Assembly (NCBI GenBank): GCA_030550315.1
Contig: JAUQPP010000002.1
Span: 1 to 64,000, forward strand
Source of the DNA: Thermotogota bacterium
Lineage (GTDB): Bacteria > Thermotogota > Thermotogae > Thermotogales > Fervidobacteriaceae
Direction of reading: 5' to 3'
Length of the DNA: 64,000 nt
Below the pieces are notes generated by a model that was not told where the DNA came from, ran no database searches, and saw nothing but the letters and a program-made list of their open reading frames with translations. How positions within the stretch are numbered: position 1 is the first letter of the stretch; each line of letters starts with the position of its first letter. The position numbers were made by a program, and so were the translations under genes. This document shows positions 31,249 to 32,784 of the stretch, one piece after another.

Positions 31249-32595
31249 CTATCTTATCCTCAAAATTGTCGTTGCGATGTAGAAATAAATCGCAATTCCG
31301 GCAAGATCAGCAATGGTGGTGATCAGTGGACCAGACATCACCGCAGGGTCTATGCGGAAGACTTTACCGACGAATGGTAGCATTGCACCTATTGCATTTG
31401 CGAAGACAATGATGGTAAGTATTGCAAGCCCTGCGGAGAAATTTATCTGAACATTCGTTGTGATCATAAAACCTCTAAGGAAAAGAGTAACACCTAAGAC
31501 TACTCCCATTATAATACCTATGTACGTTTCCCTCAAAAGAACCTTCCACCAATCCTTTAGTTCGATTTCTCCGAGAGCCATTCCCCTGATAATCAGTGTG
31601 CTACTCTGACCCCCTGCATTTCCACCGGCGTCTATCATTGTGGCCATGAAAGCCGCAAGTATGGGATAAAGTGACAAAACCTTTTCGTACCTGCTAACAA
31701 GTAAAGCACTTAAACTTTGAAAGAGAAGTAAACCAACGAGCCACGGAAGCCTGTTCTTGATGTACACCCATGGTGAGGTATGGAAATAGCTGGTCGACGT
31801 TGCGGTCATACCAGCCATCTTGTGGATGTCTTCTGTGGCTTCTTCTTCAATAATGTCGACAATATCGTCAATAACGATTATTCCAACCAATCTTAAATCA
31901 TTATCTACGACGGCTATGGCGTTGAGGTCATACCGTTTCATCAATTCTGCAACTTCTTCCTGATCGGTTGTTGTCTTAACGTAAATTGGGTTTGGATCAA
32001 AAATCTCCTCGATTGTGGTTTCCGGTTCTGAAAAGAGCAACTCCTCAAGTTTCACAGTTCCAACCAGAGTTCTATCTTCCTCAACAACGAAAATCGTGTA
32101 AATAGTCTCGGCGTCTTTTCCAAACTTGCGCACTTTATCCAGCGCCTCTTTAACCGTCATGCTCCGTGTGACGTAGACGAAATAGGGTGACATCAATCGA
32201 CCAGCAGAGTTCTCTGGGTAGTTCAGTACTTCTATAGTTCTATCTCGTTCCGTCTTTGGAAGAAACGATAGGAGCTTGGTAACAACGTCGGGAGGCAACT
32301 CATCAAGAAGCTCGGCACGGTCGGAAGGATCCATATTACGAAAAATGGACTTTATTTCATCATCGGTCAGTAATCTGACGAGCTCGAGCTGTTCGTCTGG
32401 CTCAAGTTTGGAAAAGACTTCCGCAGCAACATCTTTGCGGAGAAGACGGAACACGATGGCCTTTTCCGATGTTTCCAGTTCTTCGATCATTTCAAAAATT
32501 AGGTTTGGCTCTTGGTCTTCGAGTAGCAATTTCAGAGTTCTAAAATCTCCGCGTTCAATTAACTTATGCAAATCCACCTGTAGTTTGACCTTCAT
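31249..32595 (-). CDS. mgtE: Magnesium transporter MgtE
   Basis: MgtE_N repeats, CBS domains, TM domain with FMATMIDAGGNAGGQSSTLIIRGMALGEI. Confidence 0.96.
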   Translation of the reverse strand: MKVKLQVDLHKLIERGDFRTLKLLLEDQEPNLIFEMIEELETSEKAIVFRLLRKDVAAEVFSKLEPDEQLELVRLLTDDEIKSIFRNMDPSDRAELLDELPPDVVTKLLSFLPKTERDRTIEVLNYPENSAGRLMSPYFVYVTRSMTVKEALDKVRKFGKDAETIYTIFVVEEDRTLVGTVKLEELLFSEPETTIEEIFDPNPIYVKTTTDQEEVAELMKRYDLNAIAVVDNDLRLVGIIVIDDIVDIIEEEATEDIHKMAGMTATSTSYFHTSPWVYIKNRLPWLVGLLLFQSLSALLVSRYEKVLSLYPILAAFMATMIDAGGNAGGQSSTLIIRGMALGEIELKDWWKVLLRETYIGIIMGVVLGVTLFLRGFMITTNVQINFSAGLAILTIIVFANAIGAMLPFVGKVFRIDPAVMSGPLITTIADLAGIAIYFYIATTILRIR

Positions 32596-32769
32596 CCATG
32601 ACAGACCTCCCCTTTGCTTTTTTGCTATGGTGGTTTGTTTAGAGGATTACAACAACTCGGATAATCCACAGATCTTCACCTCCCTGACAAATTTTCACGG
32701 ATGTGTTTGAATTCGGCGGGAACGCATCTATCAGGTGGGACACACACAAATGTAGCTCGTTCACATGAC
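32596..32769 (-). promoter_or_regulatory. mgtE 5' leader with foldable elements
   Basis: ~170 nt between predicted TSS and mgtE start; inner hairpin GATGCGTT/AACACATC, alternative CCTGA/TCAGG versus CACCT/AGGTG pairings, second hairpin GGATTA/TAATCC. Confidence 0.45.
32625..32669 (-). CDS. Candidate leader peptide MDYPSCCNPLNKPP in the mgtE 5' leader (GTG start, TAG stop)
   Basis: Minus strand GGGAGGTGAAGATCT-GTG GAT TAT CCG AGT TGT TGT AAT CCT CTA AAC AAA CCA CCA TAG; near-perfect SD with ~9 nt spacing. Confidence 0.5.
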   Translation of the reverse strand: MDYPSCCNPLNKPP

Positions 32770-32775
32770 TATTTA

Positions 32776-32784
32776 ATTATACCA
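32776..32784 (-). promoter_or_regulatory. Extended -10 element TGGTATAAT for mgtE leader
   Basis: Reverse complement of attatacca. Confidence 0.55.

Follow-up and report, generated by a model that had tools for sequence, protein, structure and literature searches.

A short Pro-Pro-stop leader reading frame is conserved ahead of Mg2+ transporter genes in Thermotogota and may control their translation

The leader reading frame at the mgtE locus

The stretch of DNA analysed in this work (the window) comprises 64,000 nucleotides of the genome of a Thermotogota bacterium and carries, on its minus strand, the Mg2+ transporter gene mgtE preceded by a short open reading frame (ORF) with a ribosome-binding signal of its own (Table 1). 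Read from 32669 to 32625 on the minus strand, the codons of this leader are GTG GAT TAT CCG AGT TGT TGT AAT CCT CTA AAC AAA CCA CCA TAG, and its translation is M(V)DYPSCCNPLNKPP followed by the stop, the C-terminal end of the peptide being two prolines. The Shine-Dalgarno (SD) sequence of the leader is strong, its GGAGG being separated from the GTG codon by 9 nt. The element TGGTATAAT, at 32784 to 32776, is probably the promoter; this is inferred from sequence alone, with the transcription start not mapped, and most relatives in the family carry the same element ahead of their leader. No CorA above the Pfam cut-off was found in the window's genome.

An ATG codon out of frame with mgtE fits the usual SD spacing better than the start of mgtE itself, and the ATG[G/A]ATG arrangement formed by both starts is also present at loci L002, L006 and L008. 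This codon may be a decoy start, its role being unknown.

Table 1. Features of the mgtE locus in the window
Feature	Coordinates	Strand	Description	Basis or remark
Predicted extended -10 promoter element	32776..32784	-	TGGTATAAT	sequence
SD of leader ORF	32676..32684	-	GGGAGGTGA	sequence; SD similarly placed in relatives
Leader ORF	32625..32669	-	GTG start, MDYPSCCNPLNKPP, 14 residues, TAG stop	sequence; kept at 29/30 mgtE loci of the order
SD of mgtE	32606..32612	-	GGGGAGG	sequence; 12 nt beyond leader stop codon
Out-of-frame ATG ORF	32564..32599	-	MDEGQTTGGFA then stop, 11 residues	sequence; opens 4 nt before mgtE ATG
mgtE	31249..32595	-	Mg2+ transporter gene, 448 aa	genome's only MgtE

Conservation of the leader ahead of mgtE

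The MgtE protein of the window was used as the query in 45 genomes of the order and 104 of the phylum, and the upstream regions were oriented and then read. Directly upstream of 29 of the 30 mgtE genes of the order we found an SD-led ORF of 8 to 18 codons ending in Pro-Pro-stop, the sole exception being that of genome G033 (locus L030), and the number of mgtE leaders rose to 42 once further families of the phylum were added. Because the mgtE genes of the order share this ORF at the same place, we conclude that the leader of the window is a real ORF and not a product of chance.

The peptides (written here up to their stop codon) follow the form M[E/D][Y/C]PS...[K/Q]PP in the family of the window, ME[S/G][T/V]S...LPP with 12 residues in family f2, and ME[S/G][T/N][S/N]LPP with 8 residues in family f3. 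Outside the order, the leaders read MEDYP[S/G][N/S]RPP in f5, MG[E/D]D[Y/C]PSSRPP in f11, and MDSTGSFFEFSDLPP, MDNCDSSKQKPP and MEDPLSSYSNKPP, among others, in f10. Not every MgtE or CorA gene of the phylum has a Pro-Pro-stop leader, those without one being mostly divergent.

Three loci deserve separate mention. L064 and L069 are second, divergent MgtE copies of genomes G091 and G083; their leaders are acidic and lack Pro-Pro-stop (MSNEDSVPDSS... and MEEDLPDSYK...), hairpins were predicted on both the leader SD and the mgtE SD, and the leader is similar to an MgtL-like attenuator. At L022 (genome G040) a single in-frame TGA interrupts the mgtE match, being either a sequencing error or the mark of a broken gene.

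Leaders ahead of corA and the link with Mg2+ transport

A leader ending in Pro-Pro-stop also precedes 24 corA genes, giving 66 leaders in total (42 of mgtE and 24 of corA) and 44 distinct peptides; this set was chosen by the Pro-Pro-stop ending itself. In the genomes searched of the window's family (f1), MgtE and CorA are mutually exclusive, g1 and g2 having only MgtE and g3, g4 and g5 only CorA, and the leader stands on whichever transporter is present: all nine corA genes of g3 to g5 are preceded by a leader ending in RPP-stop, for example MSSESYTSSYSDEPLPRPP. Further corA leaders were identified in f10 (MDYFSCSEDPLSRPP and MDSSSSSKDVVSLPP), in f7 (MESASNTEIPLRPP and MARNAEMPTRPP) and in f9 (MELYSSEGDLPP), with a related form in g27 (MELYSSESEPPL or an ending in PPP). 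The corA genes found in f3, and a small number of others, have no leader.

The association of the leader with Mg2+ transporters is thus shown by comparison. MgtE and CorA belong to unrelated protein families that have in common only the transport of Mg2+, and for this reason we tie the leader to the transport function rather than to the gene. That one leader type stands on both transporters indicates Mg2+ as the shared factor, an inference from comparison that does not demonstrate Mg2+ dependence.

Selection on the encoded peptide

The near-invariant parts of the leader are an early acidic residue, with Asp or Glu found within residues 2 to 5 in 64 of the 66 leaders, and the terminal Pro-Pro-stop. 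The residue preceding Pro-Pro is Leu in 31 leaders, Arg in 22, Lys in 9 and Gln in 4, with no others. At the nucleotide level, the 42 mgtE leaders encode Pro-Pro by nine codon pairs, end in all three stop codons (TAA 29, TAG 9, TGA 4) and start with GTG (18), ATG (13) or TTG (11). Since nine Pro-Pro codon pairs and all three stops occur in the mgtE set, it is the peptide and its stop that have been kept and not the nucleotides.

Synonymous codons were in excess over column shuffles in five of the seven sets tested, comprising the mgtE leaders of f2 (p = 0.001) and of Thermotoga-like genomes (p = 0.011) and the corA leaders of g32 (0/1000), of Thermosipho-like genomes (p = 0.002) and of f9 (p = 0.012). 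Neither the six Fervidobacterium leaders of 12 residues (p = 0.34) nor the pair formed by the window and L002 alone (p = 0.14) gave a significant excess. The shuffles take no account of the relatedness of the sequences, and the labels Thermotoga-like and Thermosipho-like are inferred from peptides and gene content. In all four clades compared, conservation of the leader ORF exceeded that of the upstream 100 nt, of the leader ribosome-binding site and of the spacer, the respective values in the genus of the window being 0.91 against 0.54, 0.83 and 0.86. Selection on peptide and stop is in our view shown by these comparisons.

The original prediction, of a proline-containing 14-residue leader with a strong SD upstream of mgtE, held in sequence, coordinates and comparison. 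It had proposed that SD, frame, Pro codons and stop should be kept with synonymous drift across Fervidobacterium, Thermosipho and Thermotoga, and what we found meets and exceeds this, the leader of the Thermosipho-like genera lying ahead of corA and not of mgtE. Its emphasis on an early Asp and a terminal Pro-Pro-stop was also borne out, the early position being acidic almost without exception, whereas the early Pro held only in part, not being universal and being absent from MESTSLPP and MESTSSSFSLPP.

Specificity of the leader

Three genomes (G000, that of the window, G024 and G037) and a reversed control were scanned for the pattern CCNCCN-stop followed by GGAGG within 25 nt. The pattern occurred at 9, 5 and 18 sites, respectively, which is not above the reversed control. 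A single site in each of G000 and G024, the mgtE or corA leader, consisted of an SD-led short ORF before a long ORF; the scan of G037 recovered the site of the mgtE leader and no other examined site qualified there, the mgtE site and one other not having been examined as loci. None of 58 mgtE genes whose upstream regions were examined in two other phyla had a Pro-Pro-stop leader directly before it, a result qualified by an offset of the search frame at loci cut by contig ends.

Geometry and RNA structure

We measured the distance from the P site on the last Pro codon of the leader to the transporter start (P site to P site). Most loci give 26-33 nt. Values of 35-39 nt were obtained for several loci of Fervidobacterium and f11, smaller values for the mgtE loci of f10, and 84-96 nt for the corA loci of f9, in which 78-90 nt separate the leader stop from the corA start. 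The transporter SD lies 0-21 nt beyond the leader stop in most loci. Two ribosomes require roughly 27-35 nt, and a ribosome held at the leader stop would therefore hinder initiation in most species, though not in all.

When the corA loci of f9 and g27 were folded, most showed a hairpin covering the corA SD that was still predicted at 65 C. This prediction suggests that the output step may be a different one at these loci. Within f9 (L204-L207, L209 and L210) the SD-covering hairpin follows the leader stop in most cases, and the leader SD is another potential partner of its 5' arm (CCTCC) at several of these loci, which suggests alternative structures. Around the mgtE SD no common fold was predicted, the species differing from each other, and at 65 C the SD is partly open in most of them.

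Scanned against Rfam, the window returned a tRNA only and no M-box (RF00380), and neither the M-box nor any other Rfam element reached the gathering score in the window and 20 related loci. The leaders of Thermotoga-like genomes could not accommodate a riboswitch, as the -10-like TTAGAAT precedes the leader SD by no more than about 20-30 nt. The absence of an M-box from the loci searched is thus shown, and the original proposal of control by a leader peptide rather than by an M-box is supported, the response to Mg2+ itself remaining an inference.

A possible mechanism

We propose that the leader peptide controls in cis the translation of the Mg2+ transporter, with the ribosome acting as the sensor. 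This is the most likely of the explanations considered, but we would not put it ahead of its negation: arrest, Mg2+ dependence, direction of control and occlusion are all inferred, and there are no expression, Mg2+ or toeprint data. According to this model, ribosomes would start at the strong leader SD and synthesize a short peptide, acidic near its start and ending in [L/R/K/Q]-Pro-Pro, whose release would be slow, peptidyl-Pro-Pro being a poor substrate at the stop codon. Proteins ending in Pro-Pro are fewer than expected, and such an end promotes tmRNA tagging because termination there is inefficient (PMC3985003). With sufficient Mg2+, ribosomes would reach Pro-Pro-stop and dwell beside the transporter SD, so that initiation would be hindered and expression would be low. 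When Mg2+ is scarce, ribosomes on the acidic peptide may lose stability and fall off, or the stop may be reached by fewer ribosomes; the lower occupancy at the leader stop would then free the transporter SD and expression would rise. In E. coli, the acidic and Pro residues of MgtL (EPDP) destabilise ribosomes at low Mg2+ and the resulting drop-off switches mgtA on (PMC11282234, PMC11552253). This direction was chosen on two grounds, that an importer ought to be turned down under ample Mg2+ and that MgtL and CorL act likewise; it has not been shown.

Some observations weigh on parts of this model. Against occlusion, the distances are borderline or too long in some species (35-39 nt, and the 84-96 nt of f9 corA), and drop-off is doubtful in MESTSLPP, which contains a single acidic residue and lacks an early Pro. 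A bolder reading, which we regard as rather more apt to fail than to stand, is that the Mg2+ sensor of Thermotogota is, across the phylum, the ribosome together with an ORF of 8-19 codons ending in Pro-Pro-stop that has been attached in turn to mgtE and corA, and that slow termination tuned by Mg2+ would gate the next SD without riboswitch, Rho or regulatory protein.

Alternative explanations

Short ORFs are common, and a chance ORF could have been invoked for a single locus; the 29 of 30 orthologues of the order, the identical ending at 66 loci across the phylum and the 0 of 58 in two other phyla all but exclude this explanation. That the conserved element is an RNA (a riboswitch or an anti-SD hairpin) in which the reading frame is incidental receives some support from the hairpin predicted over the corA SD in f9, from the Pro-Pro codons CCTCCG of Thermotoga-like leaders, which could pair with GGAGG, and from conserved Ser codons that are mostly AGT. 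We nevertheless consider it very unlikely in view of the synonymous-codon excess, the variable stop and Pro codons and the changes in length that keep the frame, and also because there is no Rfam match, the mgtE leaders have no shared fold and most leaders use CCACCA or CCGCCA and not CCTCC.

Two further alternatives are the main rivals of our model. Under ribosome loading, ribosomes terminating on the leader would re-initiate 20-33 nt downstream and leader translation would raise expression. Stop-to-start distances are indeed short in most loci, both ORFs have strong SDs, and re-initiation after leader peptides has been proposed to increase translation in bacteria (PMC4833913). This view is nonetheless improbable, as it accounts neither for the obligatory Pro-Pro ending, which slows termination, nor for the restriction to Mg2+ transporters, while each transporter has a strong SD of its own and the stop-to-start gap of f9 corA reaches 78-90 nt. 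The other rival, also unlikely though a little less so, is that the leader senses another aspect of translation (EF-P, release factor, the supply of Pro-tRNA or the general state of the ribosome), the transporter being part of a wider stress response. Pro-Pro-stop is a generic motif of slow termination (PMC3985003) and the Mg2+ dependence of the leader has not been demonstrated; against this possibility, the two genes that carry the leader are unrelated and have nothing in common but Mg2+ transport, and a sensor of this kind would be expected on further genes, of which the scans of three genomes gave no other that qualified.

Comparison with known systems

Searching the open-access literature, with subscription journals mostly outside its reach, we found no leader peptides described for mgtE or corA of Thermotogota. 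In other bacteria the M-box (ykoK leader) riboswitch controls mgtE-type genes in cis, and mycobacterial M-boxes carry upstream ORFs too (PMC12810186); the system described here differs in that no M-box was found at any locus searched and the 5' leaders of Thermotoga-like genomes are too short for one. In TnaC-type leaders, the stalling of peptidyl-tRNA-Pro at the stop codon controls the downstream genes, although what TnaC senses is tryptophan (PMC3985003), and we claim no sequence similarity. TnaC acts through Rho. The feature of arrest peptides that is relevant here, Pro as the last codon before the stop (in this case Pro-Pro-stop), is met in 29 of the 30 mgtE genes of the order, arrest itself being inferred.

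The closest parallels are the enterobacterial leaders. CorL, the leader ORF of corA in Salmonella and E. coli, is likewise short and its translation is inverse to corA expression (PMC11552253); it differs in having a structured 5' region and Rho, and the relevant passages of that work describe no Pro-Pro-stop ending, whereas the corA leaders of Thermotogota end in [L/R]PP-stop and mostly lie immediately before corA. MgtL, the mgtA leader of the same two species, is also a short ORF with acidic and Pro residues before a Mg2+ transporter gene, and Mg2+ acts through its translation (PMC11282234, PMC11552253). MgtL differs by a long structured leader, by Rho-dependent termination and by a key motif, EPDP, that is N-terminal, whereas in Thermotogota the invariant part is the C-terminal Pro-Pro-stop, no structured leader is needed and no sequence relationship has been shown. 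Compared with an EPDP-type motif, the early acidic residue is there in 64/66 leaders and the early Pro in only some, and a long leader with alternative structures of the MgtL or CorL type was not found, the leaders of Thermotoga-like genomes being too short and the mgtE leaders as a whole showing no consistent fold.

By analogy, then, the Thermotogota leader may work like MgtL and CorL, with Mg2+-dependent expression inferred and membership of the same class not shown. Being minimal (promoter, SD, eight codons, SD), the system permits a direct test of Mg2+ sensing by the translating ribosome. Enterobacteria provide the best-known cases of Mg2+ uptake controlled by leader peptides; if our reading is true, Mg2+ sensing by the ribosome would have arisen or persisted independently in a distant phylum that includes thermophiles, and on two unrelated transporters.
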